Shown here one piece after another: positions 2,238 through 46,513 of a stretch of 46,604 nt of DNA. Location of the stretch: IMG/VR virus record IMGVR_UViG_3300046517_000307, positions 1-46,604 of that record; one strand, given 5' to 3'. Origin of the DNA: a virus. The position numbers and the translations under genes were made by a program. The stretch's first letter is position 1. Every line of letters begins with the position of its first letter. Below the pieces are notes generated by a model. It was not told where the DNA came from and did no database searches. It was given only the letters and a program-made list of their open reading frames with translations.

Positions 2238-3713
2238 TTACGAATTGCCGATGCCGGTAATGACACCGAAGGCCGGGTTAAAGTAGTTTTGCAACACGCC
2301 GTCGAAATAGACGCCATATTGATACTTCCGCGAAACAATCGGCCATTCGATCTGGTAATAATCACGGCGCAACAGCATGCGCACCAGTTGCGCCACATTC
2401 GACAGCGGATAAGGCACCGTCCGCGAATAAATGTAGCAAGTGCCTTGCGGCATGAACGGGTGAGCATGCACTTGCAATTGCTGCGTGCCAAACCCGATTG
2501 GGTTGTTGTACACCTTGAATTGCGCCGCCGCCGCAAGCCCGTTTGCGCTCGCGTCGCTCATGAAGAACGGCGCAAGGTTCGTGTTGCCGGTAAGAATCTT
2601 GTTTTTGGCGTTTTGCTGATCCGTTCCGTTCATGATTATGTCGGTCGGAATCAGGCGGTAATTGTTGTAAAACGATGACAACGCCGTGTCAATTTCGGCG
2701 ATGCCGCCCGTGCCGCTGCCGCTCGTTGTGAACGCCGCGCCGCCAAGGTCTTTGGTGTATGACCCGCTGCCCGACTTCATCGCTTGCGTAAGCAGACCAT
2801 CGAACACAAGCGAATTGGTCGACGTATCGGTTGAGGGCAGCGCCGAAGACAGTTGACCCGACGCGTTAAGCGCCGTAATGGTTGCCGTCGGGTTGCCCGT
2901 AATCGCGGCGAGCTTCCACGATGCCGCCGTGGCGCTGGCATACCACGCATAACCGACCGCGCCAGGCGTTGCCGTCGTCGACAGCGTGAACGATTGCACC
3001 GCCGTGCCTGCGTTGAGCGTGCCGCCCGTGCTGTTGGTCGAAGCGATGCCGCTAAAGCCTTGAATCGTGTCCGTCGACCCGTCGGCGTTGGTGCGCGTAT
3101 ACGGCAGTTTGACGCCCGCCGCGACGGTCGATTGCAGCATACCGTCATACGTCAGCGGAACCACAACAAAGGAATACGTTGTGCCGTCCGACAGCGCACC
3201 GCCGGTTGCATGCCCCGTCGCCGTCGGCACAACACCCGTGCCGAGCAGCATCGTGGCATTGCCGCCGATGATTATTTTTTCCTCTTGCTCCATGCACGCC
3301 TGCAACAGTTCGGTAACGGCCAGCGCGCGCACATCGTCAAAGCCTTTTGCGGCATAGTCGGCTTCGAACGTTACATAATTGTCCAGGCCAAGGAATGCGA
3401 ACGCCGCGAGAACCGCATTCACCGTTTGCGACATATAACCGCCGCGGTTGCCTTCCGACAGACCAATGGACACGTTGCCGGGGTTAACGGCAGTAATCGT
3501 GCGCCAGTTGGCTTGAATGCCCGTGCCGCCGACGTTGCGCGGAATCATGTTGCGCATAATCGTGGTGATCGGGTACAGCAATTGTGCCGCCGGTTGCAAA
3601 TCGTATTCGGCGATGCCGGTAATCGCGGTGCCGGGTTGCACAAAGGCTTTGTGCACATCGGCTTTTTGCGCTTCCCGAATCTTGCCGAGAATCGAATTCA
3701 GGTCTTGTTGCAT
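2238..3713 (-). CDS. Major capsid protein (HK97-fold type, with inserted domain)
   Basis: 491 residues, ATG 3713 behind GAGGA. It lies directly after the protease/scaffold gene and before the connector, the usual place of the capsid gene. The N-terminal 150 residues (helical start, AEYDLQPAAQLLYPITTIMRN, then GNRGGYMSQTVN and LLQACMEQEEKIIIGGN) and the C-terminal part from about residue 310 read as a capsid body. Between about 160 and 298 there is a Thr/Ser/Gly-rich beta domain (DGTTYSFVVVPLTYDG, AVGYAWYASATAASWKLAAI) of FN3/Ig type, a surface insertion that explains the length compared with about 300-350 for plain capsids. The call rests on synteny plus domain pattern. Confidence 0.85.
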   Translation of the reverse strand: MQQDLNSILGKIREAQKADVHKAFVQPGTAITGIAEYDLQPAAQLLYPITTIMRNMIPRNVGGTGIQANWRTITAVNPGNVSIGLSEGNRGGYMSQTVNAVLAAFAFLGLDNYVTFEADYAAKGFDDVRALAVTELLQACMEQEEKIIIGGNATMLLGTGVVPTATGHATGGALSDGTTYSFVVVPLTYDGMLQSTVAAGVKLPYTRTNADGSTDTIQGFSGIASTNSTGGTLNAGTAVQSFTLSTTATPGAVGYAWYASATAASWKLAAITGNPTATITALNASGQLSSALPSTDTSTNSLVFDGLLTQAMKSGSGSYTKDLGGAAFTTSGSGTGGIAEIDTALSSFYNNYRLIPTDIIMNGTDQQNAKNKILTGNTNLAPFFMSDASANGLAAAAQFKVYNNPIGFGTQQLQVHAHPFMPQGTCYIYSRTVPYPLSNVAQLVRMLLRRDYYQIEWPIVSRKYQYGVYFDGVLQNYFNPAFGVITGIGNS

Positions 3714-3754: not shown

Positions 3755-5365
3755 TTACTTGGCAACGCGTCGGCGAGGGTCGCCGGGCATGCCGCCCGTG
3801 GATTGAATTACCTTTGTTACCGTGGCCGCTTCGTTGATGCTGCCATCGGGATTCAACACCGTAAGCGCCGCGATGTCTTCGGCGCTCAACGTCTTAGGTT
3901 CGCCGCCATTGCCCGTGTCGTCGGTCTTTTCGACCGGACGAAGGCGAATGCGCGAAACTGGTTGCGCCTCAAGCTTCGTAATCTTCGCAGTCAGCGTTTC
4001 GATTTGCGCGGCAAGCGTCGCACCTTTCACAAGCTCCGCATTCGCCACGACCTTTTCGCTGCCGCCGTCGCCGCACGATGCGCCAAGCGCGACCATGCTG
4101 TTATGCGCGTTTTGCAAGTGCGCTTTGTCCGCTGCCGAATGCCTGGCGCCCGCCTTTTCCAACAGGCGCGCGCGCAGCGCGGGCGCGTCAAGCTTCACCG
4201 CGTCGGCGAATTCGTCGGCGGTCATCGCATCGGCGGCAGACTTCAACAGCACGCCAAGCGTCGCATCGGGCGCGGGCATCGCTTTGAGCATGGCGCGCGA
4301 CGCATGCACCGTATGGAATAGCGCGACGGCTTCGCCCGCGTCGGTCGACGCGACAAGGGACGCGACAAGCTCGTTGGATTCTTCATTGCTCATGGCTTGA
4401 AAAATCTTGACGCCTTCGGACATCCACGCGCGCAGCGCTTCCGGCACCGGCGACGCGTCGCCTTCGTAATCGGCGTCGGCTTGCGCGCTCATGGCAACAT
4501 TCGCAAGGCATTGCAGGCAATCCGCGAACGCCTGCACATTCCACATGCCTTTGTCGACTGCTACGCCCGCCGCCGGTACGGGTTCCGCGACCGGTGCGGG
4601 CGCATTTCGCTTTGCGATGTCGGCTTGCAATGCCGCGAGCGCATCGGCCATCGTAAGGCCGGATTCGTTGAGCGTCTTCGCAAATTCTTCGACTTGATCC
4701 GGCGTGCCGGTTACGTCTAATGCTTCGTCGGCTTTTTCGCCGCCTTCGGCTTTTGCGGTTTCCGCTTTCGCTGCGTCGCCGCTCTCGCCGTCGGTCTTTG
4801 CAATGGCGGCATCGGCGGCAGCGTCGCCGGTTGCGGAAGCGCTATCGTCACCAGAGGCAACGACCTTGAACGGCACTTGTTGCACCACGCCATCAGCTTT
4901 GACCACATCGAAGAAAAGCGCAGAAGGCACGCACGGATTATCAACAAGGGAAATCTCCGAAGGGTTGGCGACATATCGCTTGACTTCGGCATCGCCGACT
5001 TTCTCGGCTTTCTTGTCTCCGACATACGCGCCCCCGATGGAATAACCCGTGTAAACGCCTTCGATAACCTTTTGCCATTCGGCGTCGTCAACAATCTTAG
5101 TGCCGATGTCGATTGCCTTTGCCGCATCGTCGCAGTTCATGGCGATAAGCTTGCCCGCGGCAACCTTGCCATGCATCGCGCGCAGATTGCCGAGCGACTT
5201 GCCATCGGTCGCGTCGGCAAACGATTTCGACCACGCTTCAAAATATGGTTTGCTTCCGGCGTAATCGAAAATTTCGCCGCTCTTGTCGACTTCCTCGGCA
5301 ATAGCCCGGCCCCACACTTCGCGGCGAGCTTCGTCCACTTTCATTAAACGCGCAAAGATTTTCAT
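3755..5365 (-). CDS. Prohead protease fused to scaffold-like C-terminus (XkdF/S78-like)
   Basis: 536 residues, ATG 5365 after AAAGGAATAGG. Residues 1-150 match XkdF-type prohead proteases: KVDEARREVWGRAIAEEVDKSGE at the start, His65 in MHG, Ser109 in GYSIGG and an acidic residue in the SEISLVDNP motif near 136-144, a likely His/Ser/acid triad. The rest is alanine-rich, acidic and helical, and resembles a capsid scaffold (delta domain) that the protease would remove during maturation. The gene is immediately upstream of the capsid gene. Protease and scaffold in one chain is a known arrangement. Confidence 0.87.
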   Translation of the reverse strand: MKIFARLMKVDEARREVWGRAIAEEVDKSGEIFDYAGSKPYFEAWSKSFADATDGKSLGNLRAMHGKVAAGKLIAMNCDDAAKAIDIGTKIVDDAEWQKVIEGVYTGYSIGGAYVGDKKAEKVGDAEVKRYVANPSEISLVDNPCVPSALFFDVVKADGVVQQVPFKVVASGDDSASATGDAAADAAIAKTDGESGDAAKAETAKAEGGEKADEALDVTGTPDQVEEFAKTLNESGLTMADALAALQADIAKRNAPAPVAEPVPAAGVAVDKGMWNVQAFADCLQCLANVAMSAQADADYEGDASPVPEALRAWMSEGVKIFQAMSNEESNELVASLVASTDAGEAVALFHTVHASRAMLKAMPAPDATLGVLLKSAADAMTADEFADAVKLDAPALRARLLEKAGARHSAADKAHLQNAHNSMVALGASCGDGGSEKVVANAELVKGATLAAQIETLTAKITKLEAQPVSRIRLRPVEKTDDTGNGGEPKTLSAEDIAALTVLNPDGSINEAATVTKVIQSTGGMPGDPRRRVAK

Positions 5366-5394: not shown

Positions 5395-6648
5395 TTACTT
5401 CACCGTTACGCTGCCGTTGCCGTTGTTGGTGAAAGTGCGACTGCTGCCATCCGTCGTTGTGTAGCTTTGCCCGGTCGAAAGCCGCGCATAATCGGTCGTG
5501 TCGCTGCCGCCATAATTGCTATACATGGTTTCCTGTTTGTGCACGCGAATTTCGTTATGCCAATCGCCCTGGTAATCAACCATCCACGCGCCGCATTGGA
5601 TGGCGTCGGGCGCGACGGTAATGCTGCGCAGCGTGGCACTTGCGCAAGGCTTCGGCGACGGCAGCGCGCCGAGCGCGCGAAGGTGCGGCGACGCGAAATT
5701 TACTAGCGTGTACATATCGCTCCCGCGGCCCATTTGGTCAACGTCGCTGCCGTATTCGTTGTATGAACCGTTGTAGCGTGACGCGTTGTGCAACAGGTAG
5801 AGTGCGTGGCCTATTTCGTGCGCATACATTCCGGCGCCATCTTGGCTTGTTCCCCATGCGGCCACGAATCCGCCGCCGGTCGACGCCTGCGAAGACCAAC
5901 AGGTATAAGGCGTTACGCCGACAACAACATCCGGCGCCGGTTTCTTATTCCCAATCGCGGCGTATGCGTCGCTGTACATATTGATCCAACCGCAACTCGT
6001 CGCTTTGCTCAATTCGACGGCTGGCAATACCGTAATATTGAGCTTGCGCACGCCATACGTTACCGACAAATACCACGCCGCGACGCGATCCATGATCGGT
6101 TGCAATGCCGCTTGCGTTACTTTCGGCAGCGTCGCGTTGTATGCATCAATCGACGGTTGCGACGCGCCGTCGTACATTTGGTAACGCAATGGCACAACGT
6201 AAACCGTCGTCATGATTACCGGTGCGGGGGGCGTCGACACCGGGGGCGGCGGGGGTGGGGGCGGCGGCGGCGGCGGCGGCGGCGGCGGGGGGGGTGGGGG
6301 CGGCGACGGCGCAACCGTGGGGCATGTTACGGGCGCGGCGGTGCCTTTAACATCGAACGTCGTGCAATGCCCGTCGCCATACTGAAATGTCGCAGTACTG
6401 CTAACGATGAACACCCGCGCGGCGCGGAATTCCGCTACCAACGTCCAGCTTGATGTCGGCAACGTGTACAGGTTGTAAGCGTAATTGCCGTCGGCATCGC
6501 CCACGCCGTAATTGCGGAAAATTTCTTGCGTCGGCGTGACAACCCATTGTCCGCCCGTATTGCTACCCTCATAAGTTCCGTCGGGCGATGATTGAGCAAA
6601 CGCGGGCAGCGTAAGCGCCATTAGCAACGCAATTAAAAGGTTTTTCAA
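5395..6648 (-). CDS. Secreted M11 (gametolysin)-like metzincin metalloprotease
   Basis: 417 residues from TTG 6648, chosen because it overlaps the upstream stop (TTGA), has GAGGA six bases upstream and gives a clean Sec signal peptide (about residues 1-19, ending AFA/QS). An N-terminal beta domain follows, then 21 consecutive prolines (116-136). The catalytic domain carries HEIGHALYLLH with zinc ligands His277, His281 and His287 and catalytic Glu278. A Met-turn at Met306 (SDVDQMGRG) is typical of M11 peptidases. Cysteines suggest disulfides in an exported protein. The substrate is unknown; the mature enzyme should be periplasmic or extracellular, or packaged. It sits between the minor head fusion and the prohead protease, which is very unusual for phages. 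Confidence 0.88.
   Translation of the reverse strand: MKNLLIALLMALTLPAFAQSSPDGTYEGSNTGGQWVVTPTQEIFRNYGVGDADGNYAYNLYTLPTSSWTLVAEFRAARVFIVSSTATFQYGDGHCTTFDVKGTAAPVTCPTVAPSPPPPPPPPPPPPPPPPPPPPPVSTPPAPVIMTTVYVVPLRYQMYDGASQPSIDAYNATLPKVTQAALQPIMDRVAAWYLSVTYGVRKLNITVLPAVELSKATSCGWINMYSDAYAAIGNKKPAPDVVVGVTPYTCWSSQASTGGGFVAAWGTSQDGAGMYAHEIGHALYLLHNASRYNGSYNEYGSDVDQMGRGSDMYTLVNFASPHLRALGALPSPKPCASATLRSITVAPDAIQCGAWMVDYQGDWHNEIRVHKQETMYSNYGGSDTTDYARLSTGQSYTTTDGSSRTFTNNGNGSVTVK
6241..6303. repeat. Polyproline-coding GC microsatellite, (GGC)9 and G8 runs
   Basis: 63 bases encode 21 prolines in the M11-like protease. On the + strand the tract includes nine GGC units (6260-6286) followed by eight G in a row (6287-6294). 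Such tracts slip easily during replication: triplet changes alter linker length, and a single-base change in the G run would shift the frame before the catalytic domain. Confidence 0.85.
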
Positions 6649-9600
6649 GCGGATTCCTCTTGTGTTTGCATGACGACCGGCACGATTGAGCATCGGCAGT
6701 TTGGATGCACGGGCGGCGCATCGTCGCCACTTGGAAAAGGCGCATCTAATGCAAGTTCGCCAGCGTCGGCATTTTCCTGGCATTCTTCCGACACTAAATC
6801 ATCTTCCGCGGTAATCCATTCCTTGCCTTGCACGACGCCGCTTGCCTTGTAACCCTCAAGCGCGCCGCTATTTGCCGCCATTTGCGTTTCGGTGCGCGCA
6901 ATCATCATCGCGCGCGAATCGCTAAATGCATAAGAGTCTTGCAACGAAGCCGCAATTTTGTCGTTGCTCCAACCCTCTAGCATTGCTTGCTCAACCGTGG
7001 CGCGGATACCGTCGCGCGTGCCTTCGGTAATCTGCCATTCCGCATTCGGGTTTTGGATCAATTCACCCGCGGCGTTAATGCGCATGCCGACCATTTCCGC
7101 CGAGCGCTCTTTGCCGTAATCAAGCGCATATTCGTTGACGACGTTCGCAACCTCTTTGCGCGCGGTTACGTCAATGCCGACCTGATCCAATGCGGCATAA
7201 GCGCCATCGCTTGCAATGGCGGCGAGCGTGTCGTCAATCTCCCCGACAAGCGCAACCCATTGGTTAAAGTCGATGCGCGCAATGATTTCGTCAAGCGCAA
7301 GCAATTCTTGATCGTCGGTCTTTGCCTTGGCGTAACCGTGCGCGCGCATCAAATCATGTATTTGCTTTGCAATGTCTGCCACCTGCGAACGCAGGAATTT
7401 AGCGACGTCACGCGTAAGCATCGCGCGCGCAACGCGAATCGCTTTGCGTTTGGTGAAGTCGCGCGCTGCGGTAACGCGCTTTTCTACGTCGTTGGAAATG
7501 GTCGGCGACGCGGCAAAGGTGACGGCGGCAACGGCGAGCAGGGCGCGGAATTCCTCAAGCTCAAAATCGCGCTCAATGAGCGGCTTCGGATCAAGCGGAA
7601 CAAGCCGCGACAGCGAATCGCGTTGCAGCGGCGCGGCGCCATCCGGCGCAAAGGCAGCGCCCCCGGCGAAGGCGACGGCCCCCGCGGCGACACGTTGCCT
7701 GGCGAGCGGCGATTGGCGAAGGTACGGCGACAAGCCGCCGGAACCAACCGCCGCCGTCGGCGCCGCTTCGGCGTCGAAGGCGCCCGACCCGGCAAAGGAA
7801 ACCGCGCCCGCCGACGCTTGGCTTGCCCCTTCGGCGTCGAATACCCCATGCCCGGCGAACGCAACGGCCCCGTCGGCGAGCGCCAGGCCCGTCGGGGTGA
7901 ATTGGCCCACGCCAAGGAATTGCGCGGCGCCTGTGGCCGTTTCCGCCGTCTGTGCGTCGAATGCGCCCGCTCCGGCGAACGCCGCCGCGCCGATGGCGAG
8001 CGCTTGCCCGTCGGCAGCGAATGTGCCATTGCCCGCGAACGCCGCGAAGCCTGCCGCGAATGCTGCGCCGCCGAAGGTCGCAACCCCGGCGCCCGATGCC
8101 GTAAGCGCGCCGTCGGCATGCGCCGCACCCGCTGCGGCAAAGGCGCCCGCGCCATTGAAGGCGCCGACCGCCTGCCCCTGTGCCGACGTTGCGCCGACCG
8201 GGGCGAAGGCGCCAACGCCGTGCGCCGTTAGGCTCGCCGCGGCATTTTCGTGCCCAACCGGGGCGAAGACGCCGACACCGGAAGCGGCGAGCGCGCCATC
8301 GGCGTGCGCGGCACCGGTTGCGGCGAATGCTCCGACGCCAGCAAAAGCAACGTGCCCGCTTGCCAATTCGCTGCCGTGCGGCGCGAATGTGCCGGAACCG
8401 GCACCCGTCCACGATGCCCGCGCCAATTCGGCAGCGGCACCGGCAAACGCACCGGAACCGGCGAAGCTTACATGCGCGCCCGCGCGCGGTGCGAAGGCGC
8501 CGACGCCCGCGAAGTTGGTATGCGCCGCGGCATTTTCATGCCCGATTGCAGACAGCGCACCGACGCCAGCGAACGCAACATGCGCACCGCCGCGAACGTT
8601 GAATGCGCCAGCACCGGAGAATGCGACTTGCCCGGCATCATTCTCGCGCGCGACGAACGACGTTGACCCGACGCCATGAAATGCGACGACGCCGCTGGAG
8701 AGCAAACGCCCAACCGCCGACAGCGAACCGATGCCAGCGAAGTTTGCATGCGTCGTGGCATTTTCATGCCCAACCGGTGACGCGCTGCCGCTTCCTGCAA
8801 AAGCAACGTGCGCGCCTGCCTTCGGTGCGAACGCTCCGCTTCCCGCCGCCGTAAGATGCGACGCCGCAAGCTCGCGCGCAACAAAGGACGTTGATCCTAT
8901 TCCCGCGAATGCAACATGCGCGCCCGCATGCGGAGCAAACGCACCGGAGCCGGAGAACGCAACGTGGGCGCCTGCCTTCGGCGCAAAACTACCCGCACCC
9001 GCTGCGGTTAGATGCGAAGCGGCATTCTCATGTCCGACCGGTGCGAATGAACCAATGCCAGCGAACGCGACATGCGCACCCGCCTTCGGCGCAAAACTTC
9101 CGACGCCAGCATAGGCAACGGCGCCGGTAACATTGCCGCTTCCAAATACATAAACGTTAGCATTTAGATAACTGCCGCCTGGAATTTGCGCCTGTGCAAT
9201 GAATGTGCCCGACGCATCGTAATAGCTTGAACCAGGAATCTGCCGCGCTACGGTAAACGCCACCGGCGCCATGCTGCCTGTGCCCGCGAATGCAACCGCG
9301 CCGCCCGGTTGGATTGCTTGACCGACAAAGCTTGTTGACCCGGCGCCGCCAAAGGCTACGCTGCCGCGGCGCGCCGACACGCCAGCGAATGACGCCGCCC
9401 CGACGCCCGCAAACGCCACATGCCCGGCGCCCTTTGGCGCAAACGTTCCCGCACCGTGGAATTGCACCGACGATGCTGCTAATTCTTTTGCGGCGAAGCT
9501 CGTTGATCCGACGCCAGAAAATAGAACCTTAGCGCCGCCATTCGGCGCCAATGCTCCGCTTCCGGCAAACGCAACCGCGCCCGGCGGTGCGAAGTCGGAT

Positions 9601-10211
9601 GTTGCGATGGTGTATGCGCTGCCGACGCGAAAATCAATATCTTGCGTCGTACCAGAACCGCCCGAAGTTATTTCAACGCCGACGTTTACAAAAAGGTATT
9701 CATTGTTGAGCGTCTTAACCGCGCCCGGCGACCATGTGATCGTTACGGTCGTGTCTGCGCTGGTGGAAAGGTTCGCGCCGGTCGCGGCAGATGCAACGCG
9801 CGCGCTTGTTAATTCTGTGGCGCCCGTACCGTTCGCATTCGCGGAACGCCATACGCGCACGGCAAGCTTGAGGCGTCCGGTATATGCCGCCGTAACCGAG
9901 CGAATGCCAAAAGTAAGCGTCCAATTGGTATTCGCAAAGTTACCCGTGATCGTGTTTTCCGAGCGCCAACAATCGCCAACCGTCTGCGACGGCGCGGCAC
10001 TCGGTTGTAACGTCGTGCCCCATGTACCAGCGTTGCGCGCAACCTCTGTGCCGCCGTTTTGCAAGCATGATTGCGCGATGGCATTGGAATCGGCAACCCA
10101 TCCGGTTGTCGTCGTTGCGGTTGTCGGCGCGCTGCCGCCATCCTGCAATGAACGATGCAGCGTTGCGCCGCTTGGCACCGCATCTTTAAAATAAAAGGTT
10201 TTAACCGCCAT
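6645..10211 (-). CDS. Giant fusion: fibre-like domain + repeat array + SPP1 gp7/Mu F-like minor head protein
   Basis: 1188 residues. ATG 10211 overlaps the upstream stop (TAATG). Residues 1-205 form a beta-rich domain (starts AVKTFYFKDAVPSGATL). From about 205 to 850 there are about 31 imperfect 17-20 residue repeats of the form VAFAGxGxFAPxG. The last 325 residues are helical and end with the head morphogenesis signature of the gp7/Mu F family: ARTETQMAANSGAL near residue 1104, KEWITAEDD, a Cys, and HPNCRC near 1169. gp7/F proteins bind the portal inside the prohead, and some are ejected with DNA. The usual family length is 250-500, so about 860 residues are added in front. Whether the repeats lie inside or outside the capsid is unknown. 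Confidence 0.85.
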   Translation of the reverse strand: MAVKTFYFKDAVPSGATLHRSLQDGGSAPTTATTTTGWVADSNAIAQSCLQNGGTEVARNAGTWGTTLQPSAAPSQTVGDCWRSENTITGNFANTNWTLTFGIRSVTAAYTGRLKLAVRVWRSANANGTGATELTSARVASAATGANLSTSADTTVTITWSPGAVKTLNNEYLFVNVGVEITSGGSGTTQDIDFRVGSAYTIATSDFAPPGAVAFAGSGALAPNGGAKVLFSGVGSTSFAAKELAASSVQFHGAGTFAPKGAGHVAFAGVGAASFAGVSARRGSVAFGGAGSTSFVGQAIQPGGAVAFAGTGSMAPVAFTVARQIPGSSYYDASGTFIAQAQIPGGSYLNANVYVFGSGNVTGAVAYAGVGSFAPKAGAHVAFAGIGSFAPVGHENAASHLTAAGAGSFAPKAGAHVAFSGSGAFAPHAGAHVAFAGIGSTSFVARELAASHLTAAGSGAFAPKAGAHVAFAGSGSASPVGHENATTHANFAGIGSLSAVGRLLSSGVVAFHGVGSTSFVARENDAGQVAFSGAGAFNVRGGAHVAFAGVGALSAIGHENAAAHTNFAGVGAFAPRAGAHVSFAGSGAFAGAAAELARASWTGAGSGTFAPHGSELASGHVAFAGVGAFAATGAAHADGALAASGVGVFAPVGHENAAASLTAHGVGAFAPVGATSAQGQAVGAFNGAGAFAAAGAAHADGALTASGAGVATFGGAAFAAGFAAFAGNGTFAADGQALAIGAAAFAGAGAFDAQTAETATGAAQFLGVGQFTPTGLALADGAVAFAGHGVFDAEGASQASAGAVSFAGSGAFDAEAAPTAAVGSGGLSPYLRQSPLARQRVAAGAVAFAGGAAFAPDGAAPLQRDSLSRLVPLDPKPLIERDFELEEFRALLAVAAVTFAASPTISNDVEKRVTAARDFTKRKAIRVARAMLTRDVAKFLRSQVADIAKQIHDLMRAHGYAKAKTDDQELLALDEIIARIDFNQWVALVGEIDDTLAAIASDGAYAALDQVGIDVTARKEVANVVNEYALDYGKERSAEMVGMRINAAGELIQNPNAEWQITEGTRDGIRATVEQAMLEGWSNDKIAASLQDSYAFSDSRAMMIARTETQMAANSGALEGYKASGVVQGKEWITAEDDLVSEECQENADAGELALDAPFPSGDDAPPVHPNCRCSIVPVVMQTQEESA
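7650..9590. repeat. In-frame tandem repeat array (about 31 units of 51-60 bp)
   Basis: The DNA shows recurring blocks such as gcgccngccttcggcgcaaa, gcgaacgcaacatgcgc and attttcatgcccaacc at irregular spacing, which correspond to VAFAGxGxFAP-type protein units. Some units alternate in type (KAGAH, GHENAA, STSFVARE), which suggests that pairs of units were duplicated together. Copy number is likely to vary between relatives, and assembly from short reads could have collapsed units. Confidence 0.85.
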
Positions 10212-11488
10212 TACGTCACCGTCATTTTCGGGTCAACGTAAACGGTATAACTAGCCTTCGCCAGTTTCACCGAAGCGATAAAAAAGCCTTTGAGTTGCGG
10301 CGTAAACGTAACACTAAGTTTTTGCTTGTTCGGGTTGCTGATGCCCGTCGTTGTCCATGTTGCCGAGCTTGAGGCAAGCGTTGAACCTGACGCTAACGCA
10401 TCGGGCGCGCTTGTCGCAAGCGTGCCCTGTGGGTTTCCGCTCGCGCCGTAATATTCAACCTCAAGCCATATTTCGTTGTCTTTTAATCCCGTTACGCTAT
10501 CGTGCAGGAATTCGACCGTCACGGTTCGCGCGCTTCCGGTCGCATCATTCCAAATGACGAATTCGCCCGTTTGCAGCGCGCCAACGGGGAAAATTGTGCC
10601 CGCAACCGAAACGGCTTTCCATGACAGCGGCGTGATGCCATCGGTTGCGCCGCCGGTTCGAACAATCGTTATTTCGCTGTATACGTCACCCCATTGCGTT
10701 TCACGGTGCAAAACGTAATTGGTTCCAGCCGAGTCGCATGACATCAACTGCACGATATTCGGCCCGCTATTCGTTACCGACGTTCCGCTTATTTTTCCCG
10801 TCCATGACGACGGCAGTTTGATATTGCGAAGCGTCAAGCGCATACCCGTAGAGGTCGCGCTATTTATGTTCGTTGTCGTCGCAGCATTCGACAAATCTAT
10901 TGCTTCAAGCGTGCCGCCAACCGACGTTGTGCCGAGCAAATCTGTCGGGTTGGTTCCGCCCGCCAACAAACTGCCCCCAATCCAGCGCCACAATTGATTG
11001 CCCGAGATAAATTGCCCCGCCGCCGAAAATTTCACGGTGCAATTAAGCCATGTCGACGTGTTCGGCGTTATGGTTGCCGTGCCGGTGCCGGTCAGTTGAA
11101 ACGAACATTGCTCCATCAAACTTCCCGCGCCACACGTTAGCCCAGCCGCCGATGTGCGCCCCGCTTGAAACGTAATGCCATAGACGTAAACCGGTACGGT
11201 GCTTATCGTTAAGCCAACGTTACCGGAGAACGTCACGACCGCGCCGGTTGCAATCGTCGCCGGGGGCGCGCCGCTTGACTTGTCCGCGCAGATGCATTTA
11301 AGGGCAACACCAAACCATGTTACCGTTAACGTATCCGTTTCGGTATGTACGCTTGAAACGTAAATGACATCCCCGGCGCCGAGCGTTACCGCCGTCGTTA
11401 GCCCGTCAATGGACGTCGAAGCCTTCGCCCATGTATCAAATGGCGAAGTGTCCGAACCAACGGTGCTATCGACGTAATAAGTGGTCAT
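10211..11488 (-). CDS. Beta-helix-like virion protein (pectate-lyase-like fold candidate)
   Basis: 425 residues, ATG 11488. It begins TTYYVDSTVGSD followed by short repeating beta strands with ladders of Asn, Thr, Gly and Val (ITFQAGRTSAAGLTCGAGSLMEQCSFQL, VTNSGPNIVQLMSCDSAG split over turns), the usual look of right-handed parallel beta-helix proteins used as tailspikes, depolymerases or head fibres. A C-terminal beta-sandwich follows (LSVTFTPQLKGFFIASVKLAKASYTVYVD). It is translationally linked (TAATG) to the repeat-containing minor head fusion, so the two may form one surface structure. Enzyme activity cannot be read from the sequence. Confidence 0.6.
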   Translation of the reverse strand: MTTYYVDSTVGSDTSPFDTWAKASTSIDGLTTAVTLGAGDVIYVSSVHTETDTLTVTWFGVALKCICADKSSGAPPATIATGAVVTFSGNVGLTISTVPVYVYGITFQAGRTSAAGLTCGAGSLMEQCSFQLTGTGTATITPNTSTWLNCTVKFSAAGQFISGNQLWRWIGGSLLAGGTNPTDLLGTTSVGGTLEAIDLSNAATTTNINSATSTGMRLTLRNIKLPSSWTGKISGTSVTNSGPNIVQLMSCDSAGTNYVLHRETQWGDVYSEITIVRTGGATDGITPLSWKAVSVAGTIFPVGALQTGEFVIWNDATGSARTVTVEFLHDSVTGLKDNEIWLEVEYYGASGNPQGTLATSAPDALASGSTLASSSATWTTTGISNPNKQKLSVTFTPQLKGFFIASVKLAKASYTVYVDPKMTVT

Positions 11489-11501
11489 TCGACCGCCCGT
11501 A

Positions 11502-11915
11502 TTACCCTATGCGCGCCGTGCCGAGCATGGTTGCGGCACCGACCGCGATGATTTCCGGCGTCGGCACATGGCGCAGCGCCATCGCTTCGACCACATCGGC
11601 GAGCGTTGCCGCCGCGCAATGCGGGTCTTTTAACACTTCGTTGAGAATCGCTTGATAGTCGGAATTCAACCGCGCCGAATACAGCACGGCGGATTTGTCT
11701 ATTTTGTCGCGCAGCAAGTCGACGTTAACGCGCACTTTCGCTTCCTGGCCGCGCAATGCAAGGTCAACGTGCCATGCGGTAATCTTGAATTCCGGCGGCA
11801 ACCATGTGTTGACGACATCGGCGATGGATTGACAGTCGCCATTTTCGCGGGCTTCGTTCGCCGCCCATAGCTTGAAAATCAACGCGCGTAGGAGTGCGAT
11901 GCCTTCGCTATTCAT
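11502..11915 (-). CDS. Hypothetical helical protein of the head module
   Basis: 137 residues from ATG 11915, preceded by GGGGA at seven bases; a GTG at 11939 would add eight residues but would run over the upstream protease stop. The protein is helical and charged (LLRALIFKLWAANEARENGD, VRVNVDLLRDKIDKSAVLYSARLNSD) with one TAWHVDLALRG segment. No family is recognised. It lies between the reprolysin-like protease and the beta-helix protein. An accessory or chaperone role is possible, with no direct evidence. Confidence 0.7.
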   Translation of the reverse strand: MNSEGIALLRALIFKLWAANEARENGDCQSIADVVNTWLPPEFKITAWHVDLALRGQEAKVRVNVDLLRDKIDKSAVLYSARLNSDYQAILNEVLKDPHCAAATLADVVEAMALRHVPTPEIIAVGAATMLGTARIG

Positions 11916-11929
11916 TTCCCATTCCCCTT

Positions 11930-13321
11930 TTATTTGCACTTGCCGCTATTGCCGCGCGGCGTGCATGTTGGCTTTGCAATCCAATTGACCGACGTTTGCG
12001 CCGTGCTACTCGTTGTGCCGTTGCTCGCCGTCACCATGTAAGTAACGGTGCCGACGGTTGCGTTGGTCGTGTTGCAATTGCTCGTTGTGCTAAAGCAATT
12101 CGTCCAAACGTAAGCGGTCGGCGAACCGGCGCACACGGCAGAAAGCGTTACCGTCGTGTTGACCACGGGCGAAGCCTTGTTCGGCGACAGCGTGCACGAC
12201 ACGGGCGGCGGCGGCGGTGCGGTCGCGCTGCGGAAATTGGCAACCGTTACGGCGTTGCCGTTGAGCGTGCGCACGTTATCCGCGGTCGTTGCATTCCCCA
12301 TCGGGTCGGCGGGCGTGCCATACGTTGCAAGCGGATTCGAAAAGTATTGCAAGCGCGTGCCGCCGCATTGCGTCGGGTACGCCATGACGGTGCGCCAGGC
12401 TTCGGCGCAATCGACCCAACCATGATTAACGCCCGGCGTGGAATCCACGAACATATCGTGCCTGGCGCCGAGCAAGTGCCCAAGCTCATGCGGGAACGAA
12501 AGGTTGCCGACGGCGCACCCGCGATTGATAACCGACCACGCGATGTTGACGTTCGGGCCGATGCCGTAGGACATGCCGCAATATCCGCCGGATTCTTCGA
12601 CGTACATGGCAACAAGGTCGGCATAATGCGCATTGCGCAACGATGCAACGCCGGGGTCGGCAGCAAGCCAATTAACGTCTGCGGTTTGGTCGCCTAGTTC
12701 GTCATGCGCGACTTGCGCCGAATAGGCGAGATTGAAGCGAAACGAAATGCCGCTGTTGGCGAACACTTGATTGCTTACGTCAATCGCGTTTTGTATCGCC
12801 GCGCCAATGCCCGCACCCGCTGCCGCCGCGGTTTGGTTGGAGTACAGCACCATAACGTCAATTACGGCGCCAGTATCGCCGTGCACATCGGCGGGCGCCG
12901 CCGCTGGCGCGACATGATCCAGCGTGTCCGCCTTGCCGTCGGGAAAGCCTTTCGGGTCAAGCTCCACAAGCGTTTGCTTACCCTTCGCATCGGTGCGAAT
13001 CTCATATGTCGGGTCGCTACCCTTCGTGCCCAAATAGACGTAACCGGACACGACGCCATCCACCGACGTAAGCACCGCGCGCCCGCCTGGATAGCCTTGC
13101 ACCGTGCCAACCCAAGTAAAATTGCCCGCCTTGCGATGGTCGACATGGTGCAAATGCAGGGTGAGCGCGCCAACGGTAAGCTTCGCCGCCGGGCGCGCTT
13201 GATCCAACACGACCGCCGCGGGCGTTGAGCGCTTGACGCCGTGGTTGCGTTCGTAATCTTGCGCGAACACCGGCAACGCAAAGCCGAGCGCAAGCAACAG
13301 CGTGGCGGCGCGTTTCATCAT
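11930..13321 (-). CDS. Secreted reprolysin-like (M12) metzincin metalloprotease with Ig-like tail
   Basis: 463 residues. ATG 13321 (or the next codon, 13318) follows GAGG. A Sec signal peptide occupies 1-20 (VFA/QD). Residues of about 21-150 look like a propeptide (LHLHHVDHRKAGNFTWVG). The catalytic domain has HELGHLLGARHD with ligands His278, His282 and His288, catalytic Glu279, Asp289 after the third ligand, and a Met-turn at Met313 (TVMAYPTQC), as in adamalysin/reprolysin peptidases. Several cysteines should form disulfides. A short Pro linker (369-373) leads to a C-terminal Ig-like domain (374-448). It is the second secreted metzincin in this operon and is not a recent copy of the M11-like one, since sequence and Met-turn context differ. 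Target unknown. Confidence 0.9.
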   Translation of the reverse strand: MMKRAATLLLALGFALPVFAQDYERNHGVKRSTPAAVVLDQARPAAKLTVGALTLHLHHVDHRKAGNFTWVGTVQGYPGGRAVLTSVDGVVSGYVYLGTKGSDPTYEIRTDAKGKQTLVELDPKGFPDGKADTLDHVAPAAAPADVHGDTGAVIDVMVLYSNQTAAAAGAGIGAAIQNAIDVSNQVFANSGISFRFNLAYSAQVAHDELGDQTADVNWLAADPGVASLRNAHYADLVAMYVEESGGYCGMSYGIGPNVNIAWSVINRGCAVGNLSFPHELGHLLGARHDMFVDSTPGVNHGWVDCAEAWRTVMAYPTQCGGTRLQYFSNPLATYGTPADPMGNATTADNVRTLNGNAVTVANFRSATAPPPPPVSCTLSPNKASPVVNTTVTLSAVCAGSPTAYVWTNCFSTTSNCNTTNATVGTVTYMVTASNGTTSSTAQTSVNWIAKPTCTPRGNSGKCK

Positions 13322-13322
13322 G

Positions 13323-13763
13323 TTATGCCTCGGTAAACGTGGTTGAAGTGGTCAACTGTGGCGTTACGCCCGTGGTAACGGCCAGGTTCGGCGAGATAGG
13401 CCCGAAGTAAAGATTCACGCCAGCGCTTGCCGTGTTGTCGGTGCCAAGCATTGCGTATGTTTCCGTTTCGGTTCCGCTTGACGCCGCCGGGAAGCTACAC
13501 GTTGCAACCAACGCCGACGATTGCGCACTTGCTGCCGTAAAGCCGCCGGTCGTGCGCGCAATGGCAACGCGCGCATAAGAACCATAAGCCGCTTCGGTCG
13601 TCGTCTGATTCGATGCTGCCGAGAGCGTGCCGGTCGACAACCCCATAATCAGATTGGTAAGCGGTGTTCCCGTGTCGTTTACCGCGATGCCCGTCCACGT
13701 TGTTGCGTTGAGCAGGAGCTTGAGAAAATTGTTAATGGTCGTGTTGCCTTTGCCGGTTGCCAT
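13323..13763 (-). CDS. Small virion protein of the Gp80-like family
   Basis: 146 residues, ATG 13763 with GAGGAG upstream. The pattern ATGKGNTTINNFLKLLLNATTW, followed by a LIMGLSTGTLSAASNQTTTEA block and YGSYARVAIARTTGGF, is common in proteobacterial phages, in proteins annotated as tail fibre or Gp80-like. The C-terminal half is beta-rich and Thr/Ser-rich. Here it sits between portal and protease, so a head-surface or decoration function is equally possible. The family resemblance is fair; the function is not established. Confidence 0.72.
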   Translation of the reverse strand: MATGKGNTTINNFLKLLLNATTWTGIAVNDTGTPLTNLIMGLSTGTLSAASNQTTTEAAYGSYARVAIARTTGGFTAASAQSSALVATCSFPAASSGTETETYAMLGTDNTASAGVNLYFGPISPNLAVTTGVTPQLTTSTTFTEA

Positions 13764-13768
13764 GAGCG

Positions 13769-15565
13769 TTACTCCTCAATTTTTGCTACTAGATGCCCGT
13801 GTTCATCGCGCGATGCGGTGACGGTTCGGGGTTTGGGGGAATCGAATTTTGCGTGTACGGTCGTCGGCCCGACATCCACAAAGACATCGGCTTGCTTCAT
13901 TTCCGGCAACGTGACGTTGACCGGCGGCGATGTGACGTTGACCGCCGCCGGGGCGATATGCACTTGCGGCGCTTCGACGGTAATGTTGGCGGGCGCTTGC
14001 TTCACCGCCGCAATAAACTTTTCGAAGCGCGCTTCATCTTCCTTTTTCGCTTCCGGCGTCGGCCCTACGACCGGGGCAGGCTTCGCCGCCTGCATCGCCA
14101 GGGCATGATCGTTTTGCGCCTGTTGCTGTTCATCCGGCAACACGGTTGAATTGGCCGCGGCGTTGAACGTTGCGACATCCATTTGCGCGCGCATGTCCGG
14201 CTTCATCGGTTCATCGCCGCGCTTTTGCCGGATTTCGTCAGGGTGATAAATCTTCGCTCCGACTAGCGCAACATCAATCGTCGCTTGATCGGTCGGCGCA
14301 ATCGGGTCGTCTTGCTCCCACTTAAAGCACAAATCAGGATAACCGAATTTGTACGCAATGACATCGTTAAGCAGGTTCGTGATCCAACGCAACACAGGCT
14401 CAAGGCCTTGCTGCGTCGCCGTTTCTTGATGTGTCTGCGCGGTCGCACGATTCATTTGCCGGATAAACGGCGTCGGCGAAACGCTAAACGCGAAACAGCA
14501 AATGCGCGTCAACCATTCGTCATATTCATCTTTGAGCGCTTTTTCCTTTGTGTCGAAAGGCTCAACACCCTTTGGCACGAACATGCTGCCGCGGCGATTC
14601 TCAAGGTTGCCGCGCAGCATGGATTCCCAATACAACGAAAACTTTGCGATTTGGTCGGGGTTCCATGTTTCGGGAACCTGGAAAATCAAATCGGGCGTGC
14701 TGCCGTTTGTGAAATACGACAGTTGATAAAACTGGCGATGCAATGCGATGTTTACCGTTGTTACGATTTGCTCAACCGGCGAGTAACCGTAAATGCGGTC
14801 GACGCGCACGTTGCGCGGACGGTAGAACAATTCCGGCATCGGTTGCCCGTATTCGTCAAGCGGCAACGGCGTGCCCTTCGGCGTCGCAACGACGTAATCG
14901 ACCGCGGGCAATCCCTTAATGACTTCCTGATAGGCCGGGCCTTCGTCGGGCATCGGCGTGCGCCCGTCGTCGGTAATGACGCGCTTGATGGTCGCGCCGT
15001 CGATGACTTGCAACCCGAACAAATCGCCGCCGCGTGTTGGTTGGCAATACAGGCTCACCGCATCCAACACGAACAACTGTTCCAATACCATGCGCATCCA
15101 ATCGTCCCAAACGTGGTAACGGTCGGGGCGTTCGAAAAACTTTTGCACTTCATCGCAACGCGAATCGCGCTCTTGCGTGTCGTCTTTGGGCGCAATCGTC
15201 CATTCTTGCGCGGCGACTTCATCCTTGCGCGTTTCAATGATTAGGCGCAACACATCGAAGCCGTCGGCCATCGACTTTAGTTGCGCAAAGCCGATTGCTT
15301 CCTCGCCGCGCGGCGTTATGCGGGTGTTGTATCCGGTCGGGTAATCGAACGCGCGCCCGAGCGCGTCGGCTTGCGCTACGGGGTATAGCGGATTCTGCGG
15401 CGAGAAAAACGCCGTTGGCGAGTTAACGCCGCGAATCGTATACGACCCGTCAAGGTTCAACTTGATGCGCGGCTTACCCGTGCCCGCCATGCTGCCAGCG
15501 CGCAGCAACGCCGGGTCAACCGGCATGGCGTTGGGGTTCGTTTGCGGGTTGCTGCCATTCGCCAT
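13769..15565 (-). CDS. Portal protein
   Basis: 598 residues, ATG 15565. It follows terminase by a few small genes. Portal features are visible: AFDYPTGYNTRITPRGEEAIGFAQL near the start, RLIIETRKDEVAAQEWTI, an EVQKFFERPDR helix, VRVDRIYGYSPVEQIVTTVNIAL, and the stem region ENRRGSMFVPKGVEPF, then SPTPFIRQMNRATAQTHQETA. The C-terminus is long, alanine/glutamine-rich and then valine-rich (ITVEAPQVHIAPAAVNV), probably exposed in the prohead interior. It forms the dodecameric DNA channel at the capsid vertex and should contact the gp7-like protein. Confidence 0.93.
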   Translation of the reverse strand: MANGSNPQTNPNAMPVDPALLRAGSMAGTGKPRIKLNLDGSYTIRGVNSPTAFFSPQNPLYPVAQADALGRAFDYPTGYNTRITPRGEEAIGFAQLKSMADGFDVLRLIIETRKDEVAAQEWTIAPKDDTQERDSRCDEVQKFFERPDRYHVWDDWMRMVLEQLFVLDAVSLYCQPTRGGDLFGLQVIDGATIKRVITDDGRTPMPDEGPAYQEVIKGLPAVDYVVATPKGTPLPLDEYGQPMPELFYRPRNVRVDRIYGYSPVEQIVTTVNIALHRQFYQLSYFTNGSTPDLIFQVPETWNPDQIAKFSLYWESMLRGNLENRRGSMFVPKGVEPFDTKEKALKDEYDEWLTRICCFAFSVSPTPFIRQMNRATAQTHQETATQQGLEPVLRWITNLLNDVIAYKFGYPDLCFKWEQDDPIAPTDQATIDVALVGAKIYHPDEIRQKRGDEPMKPDMRAQMDVATFNAAANSTVLPDEQQQAQNDHALAMQAAKPAPVVGPTPEAKKEDEARFEKFIAAVKQAPANITVEAPQVHIAPAAVNVTSPPVNVTLPEMKQADVFVDVGPTTVHAKFDSPKPRTVTASRDEHGHLVAKIEE

Positions 15566-15962: not shown

Positions 15963-16068
15963 GTTCGCGTCGATTGATTGATACAAGCGAATGCGCAATT
16001 ACCCAAAGGCCAACGACAATAAAGCCCGACGCCCAAAGCGTCGACGCATCGGGCATGCCGAAGCTCAC
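15931..16068 (-). CDS. 45-residue single-pass membrane protein with acidic tail
   Basis: GTG 16068 overlaps the stop of the collagen-like gene (GTGA), the same junction type used repeatedly in this genome. The sequence has one hydrophobic helix ([20 protein letters not shown]) followed by a basic NRRE and a run of Asp/Glu. It is too short for a family call. Its end overlaps the next gene in a different frame. Confidence 0.55.
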
Positions 16069-16397
16069 GCAGCGCCCGTGGCACCGCGCGCGCCTGTGGC
16101 GCCAACCGCGCCGGTTGGCCCCGTAATTCCAACGGCCCCCGTTGGCCCGCCAGCATGACCAACGGAGCCGATATTGCCGGTGCTACCGGTGAGCGCGGTA
16201 AGCCCCGTATTGCCGCGCGCACCGACAGCGCCTACCGGCCCCGTTGCGTAATTGAATCCCGCCGCAAGCAAGCCCGGCGAAATTGCATATTGCGGCATAG
16301 TGACGAAGCCGTTAACCGGCGTATACGTCACGCCATCAAGGCCCAACACCGGCCCCGCGTTTGCAGGGCATGTTAAAACGATTGTGTGCGAAGACAT
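16065..16397 (-). CDS. Collagen-like virion protein, copy 1
   Basis: 110 residues, ATG 16397 after AAAGGAAA. Residues 1-52 form a beta-rich head ([19 protein letters not shown], then [10 protein letters not shown]) that is clearly paralogous to the next gene upstream. The rest is Gly-X-Y collagen-like sequence ([14 protein letters not shown]). Collagen-like tracts in phage proteins form trimeric rods. The position between terminase and portal is unusual; a head fibre is one option. The stop overlaps the next start (GTGA). Confidence 0.75.
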
Positions 16398-16445: not shown

Positions 16446-16787
16446 TTACGTTCCTGTGGCCCCGGTATTTCCTGTTGCGCCCGCTGCGCCCGTGGCGCCT
16501 GTAATTCCGACAGCGCCTGTGCTTCCTGTATTTCCTGTGCTACTTCCTGTTGCGCCTGTGCCGCCTGTATTTCCTGTATTTCCAACGGCGCCCGTATTTC
16601 CGCTAGGCCCGGTAATTCCTGTGCCACCCGTACCGCCGACGCCGAAGTTATATCCCGCGGTCAGCATGCCAGGCGCAACCGCATTCGCTGGCATCGTGAC
16701 TTGACCGGAAACGACGGCATACACAACGCCATCCATCCCCAACACGTTGCCAATACCCGTCGGCACGTTCAATGTAACGTTGCTCAT
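16446..16787 (-). CDS. Collagen-like virion protein, copy 2
   Basis: 113 residues; ATG 16787 overlaps the terminase stop (ATGA). The N-terminal domain ([19 protein letters not shown], then [12 protein letters not shown]) matches that of copy 1 at most core positions. The C-terminal half is Gly-X-Y with many NTG and ATG triplets encoded by nearly identical 9-base units. The two copies therefore arose by tandem duplication, followed by divergence of the rod. Probably a trimeric surface fibre; the location in the virion is unknown. Confidence 0.75.
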
Positions 16788-18262
16788 GATTTATTCCCTT
16801 TCGTGTAATGCGATAGCAAACCTTCGTGCGTGTCGGTGACAACGCCCGGCGTCGGTGCAACATGATTCGCAGCAAGCGCTTGTGCGGCGCGTGCATAGTG
16901 GTCAAGCAAGCCAAAACCTGCCGCATCGGCAAGTGCGGTCAATGCCCACACGGCAGCATCCATGCGGTCGGGCGAACGCTCCGCGGTTAGCGGGTCGTAT
17001 TCGCACATTTGATCCTCAAGCGCGCCAAACGCGCCGACATGATGCACGCGGCCTTGTTCATACAACGCGGCAATCGGTTCGGCGCGAATCATCTTGCCGC
17101 GCGTTGCCGTTACCTTCGTGTACGCAATGTTCGCGTCGACCGTGCGCATTAACGCTTCGATCAAGTCGCCGCCGTTGTTGGTTTCGCCAATGATGCGGTC
17201 GGCGCTGCGGTCGTGGTAGCAACGCACGGCAGCGCGCGCCCAACCATCCGGCGTGGCGCTTAATGATGCGTCTTGCGTGACGTAGAAGTGCGTGCCGTCC
17301 GCAACAGGCTTTCCGTCGGGCGGTATCCACTTGAGCGGCGCCGGGCCAACGCCAGCGGCAACAATGCCGGTTTCGGCGCTGTCTTCCTCATGCGTAACCG
17401 CAGGATCCACGCCAATGACAACGCGTTGCAGCGCGGGCATTTGCTCAAGCGTGATGCGACTGTTTTCGATGCTTGAGCGTGCCCAAAGCGCGTTGGGGTT
17501 GTCGTCAAGCATTTCGGCGTTAAGTTCCTGGCGCCCGAGCCTTGTGCCTTCATACTTGCGAATAACCGTAGCGAAGAATGCGCGCGCCAGGTTGTCGGCG
17601 TTTTCGTATGTGTTGCCGCGGGTGACGCAACACGCCGGGTCGGCAATTAAATCCTTGATGATTTTCGTCGGGCGCGGCGTGGTCGTGATGACAGCCTGTG
17701 GCGCGTTACCTAACCGCAAGCCAAGTTGAGCTTGATCCCATGATTCTGCGTAACGCCATGCGGCGATTTCATCGCACCAAAGCTTTTCGTGTTGCTTACC
17801 GCGCAAGCGTTCCGGTTCGTCTGCGGTGAACACAAGCGACACGCAACCGGACGGCCAATGCAATTGGCGCCCGACGTATCGCGGGCGCTCATTGCGTGGG
17901 CATATCGCCAAGATGCCGGATTCGCCTTCGATCATGATGTCGCGTGCATCGTCAAGCGTCGCACCGATAAGATTGACGTAGCGAAACGTTTGCGCCCACT
18001 TGCGCACGGTTTCCGCGCCTGTGCGCGTCTTGCCGAAGCCGCGCCCGGCGTCGATAAGCCAATACGTCGCCTGGCCGTTCGCAAAACGGACGGGTTGCAA
18101 TTGCGACGGTCGCGCCCAAAAGCGCCACGCGTATTTGAGCGCCGCAAGTTCATCGTCCGTTAGTCTCGCCAATTGCGCTTGCCGCTGCGCTATCGGCAGA
18201 CTCATGAAGTAGCTTGCTTCGGATTGATTCGGCTTCGTCGGCAACATTGATTGGCCCGCCAT
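16784..18262 (-). CDS. terL: Terminase large subunit
   Basis: 492 residues. The packaging ATPase has Walker A AGRGFGKT (72-79) and Walker B LWCDE (161-165), with Glu165 the likely catalytic acid. The nuclease domain shows VIGVDPA (Asp286), GETNNGGD (Glu360) and [10 protein letters not shown] (Asp435), three acidic residues expected to bind metal. The pattern is of the HK97/GTA (gp17-like) type, in line with the GTA-like tail genes. ATG 18262 gives a 113-base overlap with the small subunit gene; ATG 18205 would reduce it. It cuts and pumps DNA into the prohead through the portal. Confidence 0.96.
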
Positions 18263-18728
18263 CCTTGCCCGTCATTTCGACGCGGCGAACACGATATTTG
18301 TCGTCACGCGATGCAAGCAAAAACTCAAGCAACCGGTCGCTATAGACTTGCACGGTGCCGCATTCATCGCCCTTGTAAAACACCGGTTGCGTTACGCCGT
18401 CATGTGCACGGCGCACCGCTTCACGCTCAAGGCGTTCGGTTGACTCGGCAAGCGCTGCGTCCCATGCCATTGCAAATTCGGTGTCCACTTCGCGCAAGTA
18501 ATACGCGGCGCGTCTTTGCATTCCGCTTTGCTCACATGCGTAAAGCACAACACCGCATTCCGCAAGCGCTTCGATGAACACCTTTCGCGCACGCGTTGAC
18601 GGTGTTCCCTTCGCGCCAAGAATGCGTCGCGCTTTGGGGTTATGTCCTGTGCCGATGCCCTTTGTAGAAAGGCCCGCGGCATTGTCTGCGCGCGGGCCTT
18701 TGTCGGGCGGTGATTCACCTTGTTGCAT
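18150..18728 (-). CDS. terS: Terminase small subunit
   Basis: 192 residues, ATG 18728 behind AAAGG. After a disordered polar N-terminus there is an HTH-like region (TRARKVFIEALAECGVVLYACEQSGMQRR) and the conserved block ERLEREAVRRAHDGVTQPVF, GDECGTVQVYSD and LLEFLLASR found in small terminase subunits next to this kind of large subunit. It recognises the packaging start site. Its start lies about 40 bases downstream of a promoter-like TTGACA element. Confidence 0.9.
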   Translation of the reverse strand: MQQGESPPDKGPRADNAAGLSTKGIGTGHNPKARRILGAKGTPSTRARKVFIEALAECGVVLYACEQSGMQRRAAYYLREVDTEFAMAWDAALAESTERLEREAVRRAHDGVTQPVFYKGDECGTVQVYSDRLLEFLLASRDDKYRVRRVEMTGKDGGPINVADEAESIRSKLLHESADSAAASAIGETNGR

Positions 18729-20007: not shown

Positions 20008-20421
20008 TCAATACGACGAATAATCGAAGACCATGTTGCGCGGGTCATTCCACGACTTGCCGTGCGTCGGCACGGTTGCCGGATCGTATTGGTACACCTT
20101 CACCGTTACCGGCGTTCCCGCGGGCGTTTGCATTTCGTTGGTGCCCGGTTGCGCTTCGCCGGTCACGAAGTTAAGCGTGCCGGTTTGCTGGCCGTTGACC
20201 GGGAACGGGTTGGCCGGGCCGGTCGTGACAATCCAACGCGCTTTGCCGCCGCCTTCGCCATATTCCGCGAATTGGAGCTTCGCGCCTGCCTTGTTCGGCA
20301 TGGTGAACGACAGCAACACAACGTCGTCTTTTTCGTCAATCGGGGGGCATCCATTCGCCCCGGTAATGACGCGTTCGTAAGGTGCGTCGCCATTGAGTGC
20401 GACCGTGATCTTTTGGCCCAT
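20008..20421 (-). CDS. Hypothetical beta-rich protein
   Basis: 137 residues, ATG 20421 with AAAGGG upstream. The sequence reads as alternating strands (QKITVALNGD, DDVVLLSFTMPNKAGAKLQF, ARWIVTTGPANPFP, TPVTVKVYQYDP) with no membrane segment and no signal. No family is recognised. It lies between the winged-helix gene and the small membrane protein in the regulator-type part of the - strand operon. Confidence 0.7.
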   Translation of the reverse strand: MGQKITVALNGDAPYERVITGANGCPPIDEKDDVVLLSFTMPNKAGAKLQFAEYGEGGGKARWIVTTGPANPFPVNGQQTGTLNFVTGEAQPGTNEMQTPAGTPVTVKVYQYDPATVPTHGKSWNDPRNMVFDYSSY

Positions 20422-31726: not shown

Positions 31727-31921
31727 TTAAGCAAGCAAGTCGCCTGCCCCTGCCGCCCGAGCCGCCGCCAATAGAATCGCATCATTTTTCGCCAGCAAGG
31801 CATCGACTAGCGGCGCATCATCGGGGCCAGGCACGAAGGTAAAGGCAACCGAGCGCACGCCTTCAAAGTCGTTGTGCAATTCGACAACAACGTTGACCTT
31901 TGTTACGCCCGGCGGCGTCAT
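31727..31921 (-). CDS. Small hypothetical protein after the lysozyme gene
   Basis: 64 residues; ATG 31921 overlaps the lysozyme stop (ATGA). It has a short beta hairpin (VTKVNVVVELHNDFEGVRSV) and a helical alanine-rich end (VDALLAKNDAILLAAARAAG). No family is recognised. The coupling to the lysozyme gene hints at a lysis-related role. Confidence 0.6.
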   Translation of the reverse strand: MTPPGVTKVNVVVELHNDFEGVRSVAFTFVPGPDDAPLVDALLAKNDAILLAAARAAGAGDLLA

Positions 31922-46414: not shown

Positions 46415-46513
46415 TCAGTCGATCACCAACGGGCGCCACGGGCGCAAGCCAAGGGCACGGCGAATTGCCGTAACCAGCGGGCGCGGGAACACGACGAAAG
46501 GCTTGCGCTTCAT
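46415..46513 (-). CDS. 32-residue basic peptide spanning the contig junction
   Basis: ATG 46513 to TGA 46415. The same ATG is at 36 in the left repeat copy, where only the beginning of the gene is present. The start overlaps the stop of the gp10-like gene (ATGA), and the stop lies one base before the next gene. The peptide (KRKPFVVFPRPLVTAIRRAL, then GLRPWRPLVID) is basic with a short amphipathic helix. Its place between two head-tail joining genes suggests a small accessory protein, but it may be a coupling leader. Confidence 0.5.
   Translation of the reverse strand: MKRKPFVVFPRPLVTAIRRALGLRPWRPLVID

Follow-up and report, generated by a model that had tools for sequence, protein, structure and literature searches.

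A linked pair of predicted exported metzincins among the head genes of a phage

Late gene order and position of the two protease genes

We analysed positions 1-46,604 of virus record IMGVR_UViG_3300046517_000307 (GC 0.586), and this whole stretch of 46,604 nucleotides is referred to as the window. Since an exact 127-base repeat lies at both ends (1-127 = 46478-46604), the genome is probably complete and circularly assembled, with a length of about 46,477 bp. The late genes follow one another on the minus strand in the order TerS, TerL, two collagen-like ORFs, portal, gp80-like protein, metzA, 145-aa ORF, P0004, MuF, metzB, S78/XkdF-like protease, a 491-aa protein in the capsid position, head-tail adaptor, and neck protein, while tape measure and tail genes lie beyond the neck protein, across the assembly join (Table 1). 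The two protease genes had been placed among the head genes of the late operon by an earlier note made from the sequence alone, and they are indeed found there, on the strand shared by TerS, TerL, portal, MuF, the S78-like protease, the capsid-position protein, and the head-tail adaptor. The note gave the coordinates of both ORFs correctly but omitted the strand, which is minus.

Table 1. Coordinates of the late genes and of a further gene with a homologue in a second phage
Feature	Position	Strand	Remarks
Terminase small subunit	18150-18728	minus	
Terminase large subunit	16784-18262	minus	
Portal protein	13769-15565	minus	
gp80-like protein	13323-13763	minus	podophage GP4 fibre I family, sub-threshold; directly after portal; edge of accessory insertion
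metzA (P0002)	11930-13321	minus	predicted exported M12B/M72-like (Mep72/CpaA-type) metzincin
145-aa ORF	11502-11939	minus	between metzA and P0004; no family, no signal peptide; absent from second phage's cassette
P0004	10211-11488	minus	425 aa; third trio member; matches no database family
MuF-domain head protein	6645-10211	minus	
metzB (P0001)	5395-6648	minus	TTG start; predicted exported divergent M11-like metzincin
S78/XkdF-like prohead protease/scaffold	3755-5365	minus	a family match is sub-threshold
Probable major capsid protein (by position)	2238-3713	minus	491 aa; phrog_13692, no annotated function
137-aa protein	20008-20421	minus	homologue also in second trio-bearing phage

Several other features were observed in the window. 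The two adjoining short collagen-like ORFs, which display a G-x-T repeat, occupy the terminase-portal interval (16065-16397 and 16446-16787, minus strand). A YqaJ recombinase gene lies on the plus strand, and a Phage_lysozyme2 protein is encoded at 31918-33009. A 944-aa fusion (28316-31150, plus strand) combines a methyltransferase, a GT2 glycosyltransferase (PHROG beta-1,4-glycosyltransferase), TPR, and a C-terminus that by eye resembles a heptosyltransferase, so that this phage gene may serve to modify surface glycans. The annotated gene products include no recognisable integrase or repressor.

A confirmed and a divergent, M11-like metzincin

The product of metzA consists of a signal peptide, a prodomain, a catalytic domain, and a C-terminal Ig-like domain. 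Its zinc motif HELGHLLGARHD, which fits HExxHxxGxxH/D, is kept in phage relatives and in a 20-row alignment, and its Met-turn WRTVMAY is conserved. All the elements that had been read in this protein (signal peptide, propeptide, zinc motif, reprolysin-type Met-turn, and Ig domain) were therefore recovered. In family scans, metzA scores 49.6 bits (7e-13) for Pfam Reprolysin_5 (PF13688, M12 family), above the gathering cut-off of 27. It also matches NCBIfam Mep72 (3.9e-29, 101.7 bits) and CpaA (5.7e-12, 44.7 bits) without reaching their curated cut-offs of 645 and 750, respectively; judged by these profiles, it is a relative, not a member, of the M72-type Mep72/CpaA equivalogs. Another match was to phrog_18894 (2.6e-17), a phage family with no assigned function. 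An AlphaFold model of metzA made with the 20-row alignment has a pLDDT of 82.5, and a Foldseek ranking against the PDB is headed by Acinetobacter CpaA (6o38, 1.3e-12), followed by ADAM17 zymogens, fragilysin, and snake venom metalloproteases, with an ADAM17 zymogen alignment that spans more than 400 columns, prodomain included. The structure prediction that had been proposed as a check thus returned a metzincin core. By motif, family, and predicted fold, metzA is confirmed as a metzincin. Its C-terminal 90 residues match Ig domains, those of Hoc outer capsid proteins among them.

Across the catalytic domain, bacterial relatives are as much as 53% identical to metzA. In a 48-row tree, the copies of the analysed phage and of a second phage (G001, see below) pair with an SH-aLRT of 100, and the pair nests in a five-row group whose other members are phage L115 and two bins, one assigned to Burkholderiales and one to Chloroflexota. 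Because the phage genes lie inside a bacterial radiation, a bacterial origin of phage metzA would fit. Bacterial M12-type metallopeptidases (Reprolysin_5) from Burkholderiales, Lysobacterales, and others align with metzA over the whole prodomain-catalytic architecture, but their genes are chromosomal or plasmid-borne and have other C-terminal parts. No linkage of these genes to metzB or P0004 was seen, and the metzB profile was absent from the six records tested. Mep72 of Pseudomonas aeruginosa (NF052434) and CpaA of Acinetobacter (NF033511, 6o38) have in common with metzA a reprolysin-like catalytic domain, the zinc motif, the Met-turn, and a Sec signal peptide. In contrast to both, metzA has an N-terminal prodomain, carries an Ig domain in place of two CBMs, and is phage-borne. 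No BamI/CpaB-type gene linked to metzA, and no inhibitor gene, was recognised. Mep72 is exported via Sec/T2SS, is biofilm-associated, and, unless its inhibitor BamI is present, is toxic to E. coli; it showed no activity on generic substrates, apparently has a narrow specificity, and has effects on flagellar and type III factors (PMC4334185).

The program-made ORF of metzB extends over 5395-6783. We place its start at 6648 because the homologue aligns from about there and because a TTG at this position overlaps the preceding MuF stop by 4 nt, and the extent of 5395-6648 given in the earlier note is therefore right. This overlap points to co-expression with the head genes. The protein comprises a signal peptide, an N-terminal beta domain, a 21-residue polyproline linker, a catalytic domain, and a C-terminal domain; a long proline run, of 21 prolines in metzB, is seen in all three phage homologues. 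The signal peptide, HEIGHALYLLH, and the Met-turn that had been claimed are present, the last as DQMG. The zinc motif has the three His and the Glu, while the canonical Gly at +7 is replaced by Tyr. In the G001 homologue the motifs are kept except for Y/W and L/M swaps between the zinc ligands, with Trp at +7 and the same DQMG. The homologue in another phage, L190, is a 45% relative carrying HEIGHAFGIFHN, with Gly at +7 and DQIG as Met-turn (Met to Ile). Since the Gly is replaced in two phages and the Met is lost in L190, the activity of metzB is uncertain.

When metzB was scanned against families, nothing passed the cut-off, and neither metzB nor its homologues matched PF05548 at up to E 10. 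First genome searches were dominated by matches to the polyproline linker and were discarded, while a direct PF05548 search of 185 + 12 genomes, run without a positive control, returned nothing. We built a catalytic profile from the three phage sequences (metzB, G001, and L190) with the linker left out. With this profile, matching proteins came from 1 of the 398 genomes searched phylum-wide and from 4 of the 349 searched at order level, with E 8e-7 to 7e-4 per genome, and the four matched bacterial proteins that were scanned (L204, L205, L206, and L209) are all Peptidase_M11 above the Pfam cut-off (E 4e-9 to 5e-17). Bacterial Peptidase_M11 proteins (gametolysin-like, PF05548) have in common with metzB the zinc motif, an EYGxxVDxMG Met-turn region, an LG motif, and the spacing over ~150 residues, all three motifs lying within the aligned stretch. 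They differ from it in that metzB has ~26% identity to them, Tyr/Trp at the motif Gly (in metzB and G001), a polyproline-linked N-terminal domain, another C-terminus, and no PF05548 match. The view that metzB is a divergent M11-type metzincin, by distant kinship via bacterial intermediates, is supported by these profile links, and it is in this sense that the M11-type call of the earlier note holds. The structure model of metzB (pLDDT 43) is too poor for use. At up to E 10 the metzB profile has 29 PDB matches, every one of them a metzincin of the astacin/stromelysin kind aligned at the zinc motif, with none below E 0.1. In an hhalign comparison of metzB with the metzA family, the zinc motif was the sole aligned part.

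Linkage of metzA, metzB, and P0004 and their distribution

New here is that metzA, metzB, and the 425-aa protein P0004 form a linked trio. They are three adjacent genes in G001 (IMGVR_UViG_3300046663_000168, 47.8 kb), which was counted as one phage together with contigs G002 and G003 because match identities were identical; in the analysed phage the 145-aa ORF and the MuF gene come between the members of the trio. Five genes have G001 homologues at 45% identity or more, namely the trio, the 137-aa protein (59-61% identity, located two genes upstream of the trio in G001), and a resolvase-like gene. No homologue of the portal was detectable in G001. The trio members show amino acid identities of 74, 76, and 75%, dN of 0.20, 0.19, and 0.19, and dN/dS of 0.08, 0.06, and 0.08, with dS saturated, and their DNA identity between the two phage backbones is about 69%. 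The three genes have thus diverged equally and under constraint (purifying selection), and the combination of saturated third codon positions with conserved amino acids argues that the metzA and metzB ORFs are not there by chance.

The proteases also occur separately. L190 has metzB, while metzA is absent from its 43-kb record; L115 encodes a metzA-family protease with a signal peptide (9509-10723), between exonuclease-like and dUTPase-like genes, while metzB is absent from its record. The two proteases are therefore separable, yet they are found together in two backbones, which suggests a small protein-cutting kit passed among phages. Protein searches with metzA, metzB, and P0004 in 50,697 isolate phages found none, for metzA even to E 10, a lack of chance matches that is odd and calls for caution; some catalogued phage proteins do contain the metzA domain, as phrog_18894 shows. 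In the open-access literature searched, we found no phage described as carrying a protease pair of the M11 or M12 type.

Portal relatives are found in Brevundimonas phages (47%) and in many uncultivated viruses. Among 80 portal-relative loci, many of which are fragmentary, no metzincin was found. Portal, MuF, and protease are consecutive in the closest relative (L008, 57%), and in all four loci that were read (L008, L014, L017, and L022) the order portal, MuF (separate or fused to portal), protease, and capsid-position protein has no intervening metzincin. On the strength of these loci we reject the view that both metzincins are routine head proteins, and the claim that two predicted secreted metzincins of different families are present here, outside any standard head module, is supported. 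The C-terminal part of MuF has matches in 59 ORFs of the fetched loci, whereas its 890-aa N-terminal extension, which holds many VAFAGxGAFAP-like repeats, has none. Several viral contigs have a P0004 relative downstream of a portal gene. The region near these relatives can hold a PhoD-like phosphatase (L098:6863-8233) or kelch proteins, one of which (L102:11483-14062) has a hydrophobic, signal-like N-terminus. Going by these gene orders, the region behind the portal seems to be a variable niche for accessory genes and is possibly a general site for accessory enzymes. P0004 is probably a fibre or decoration beta-helix protein of the virion.

Possible action of the proteases and its meaning

Among 35 gene products tested with a simple heuristic score (not SignalP), only metzA and metzB have strong Sec signal peptides; a third scoring ORF is clearly weaker and probably mis-started. 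The same heuristic also assigns a signal peptide to their relatives in G001, L190, and L115, and the catalytic-region cysteines of both proteases are conserved between the two trio-bearing phages. Predicted export and kinship to secreted proteases favour action outside the cytoplasm. In our best explanation, metzA and metzB would be made late, from the virion-gene operon, and exported via Sec as precursors. Disulphides would form as they fold in the periplasm, and activation would follow, for metzA by loss of its prodomain. Around lysis, the enzymes would cleave host envelope proteins or those of the matrix around the cell, and this cleavage may help cell break-up and the release or spread of progeny. 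The explanation rests on the observed genes, motifs, family kinship, metzA fold, heuristic signal peptides, purifying selection, co-occurrence of the trio, and position in the head operon. With moderate confidence, and as one joint reading, we take metzA, metzB, and P0004 to form a linked set of accessory genes, inserted among the virion genes of two or more phages with unrelated backbones, and its proteases to be exported late to act on envelope or matrix around lysis. Against a lysis role, the trio lies in the head module and not beside lysis genes such as that for the Phage_lysozyme2 protein (31918-33009).

The same position, beside P0004 and the gp80-like fibre protein, could mean that the proteases are displayed on the virion surface in the post-portal fibre/decoration niche, held by the metzA Ig domain and P0004, and clear matrix before adsorption. 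The resemblance of the metzA C-terminus to Hoc Ig domains would agree with this, as would the occurrence of P0004 relatives after portals elsewhere, in a niche that holds other enzymes such as the PhoD-like phosphatase. Tailed phages, however, assemble in the reducing cytoplasm, which sits badly with Sec signal peptides and conserved cysteines in both proteases, and bacterial M11 relatives also bear Ig-like C-termini, so that having an Ig domain does not mark a protein as part of the capsid. We therefore regard virion display as rather unlikely. Of the roles raised in the earlier note, proteolysis of biofilm, matrix, or envelope at lysis fits the Mep72/CpaA homology and the signal peptides, carriage on the virion is made less likely by the latter, and cleavage of competitor or immune proteins found no support here.

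The proteases might instead shave receptors or surface proteins off infected or neighbouring cells, blocking superinfection or the loss of progeny onto debris. Exported relatives of narrow specificity such as Mep72 (PMC4334185) are compatible with such a role, and the methyltransferase/glycosyltransferase fusion of this phage could alter surface glycans, but a place in the late operon is late for exclusion, and we judge it unlikely. Improbable in our view is that these are lysogenic-conversion genes aiding a lysogenic host in nutrition, matrix remodelling, or interaction with other organisms: the bacterial relatives are extracellular proteases and signal peptides are present, but no integrase or repressor was recognised among the annotated gene products, and the genes sit within the head operon instead of at a moron site close to att. 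That they are chance-acquired host passengers with no phage function, as the nesting of metzA in a bacterial family might hint, is highly improbable. Random passenger DNA was rejected because selection is strong (dN/dS about 0.06-0.08) and the trio is kept in two backbones at about 69% DNA identity.

The closest case in the literature searched is one Listeria metzincin of phage origin, and dedicated exported phage proteases are otherwise hardly described. In that mtz-tim metzincin-TIMP pair, the secreted metzincin weakens the envelope and sensitises cells to phage lysis (PMC8235301). It resembles metzA and metzB as a secreted metzincin linked to phage genes, but it differs in its Gram-positive host, in having a lipoprotein substrate as partner, in being a single protease, and in lying near holin-lysin or remnant loci and not in a head module.

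Late export of a linked accessory set remains our preferred reading. More tentatively, metzA and metzB might be a mobile two-protease module that moves between unrelated phages with a virion fibre protein, its exported or virion-tethered metzincins digesting extracellular or envelope proteins. Phages carry enzymes that cut sugars and peptidoglycan, and such a module would, if true, be the protein-degrading counterpart of phage polysaccharide depolymerases. A conserved metzincin pair that moves together with what is probably a virion protein suggests that, for phages, the layers of matrix or surface proteins around bacteria are a barrier worth attacking, and metzA and metzB are two concrete enzymes with which this idea may be tested.
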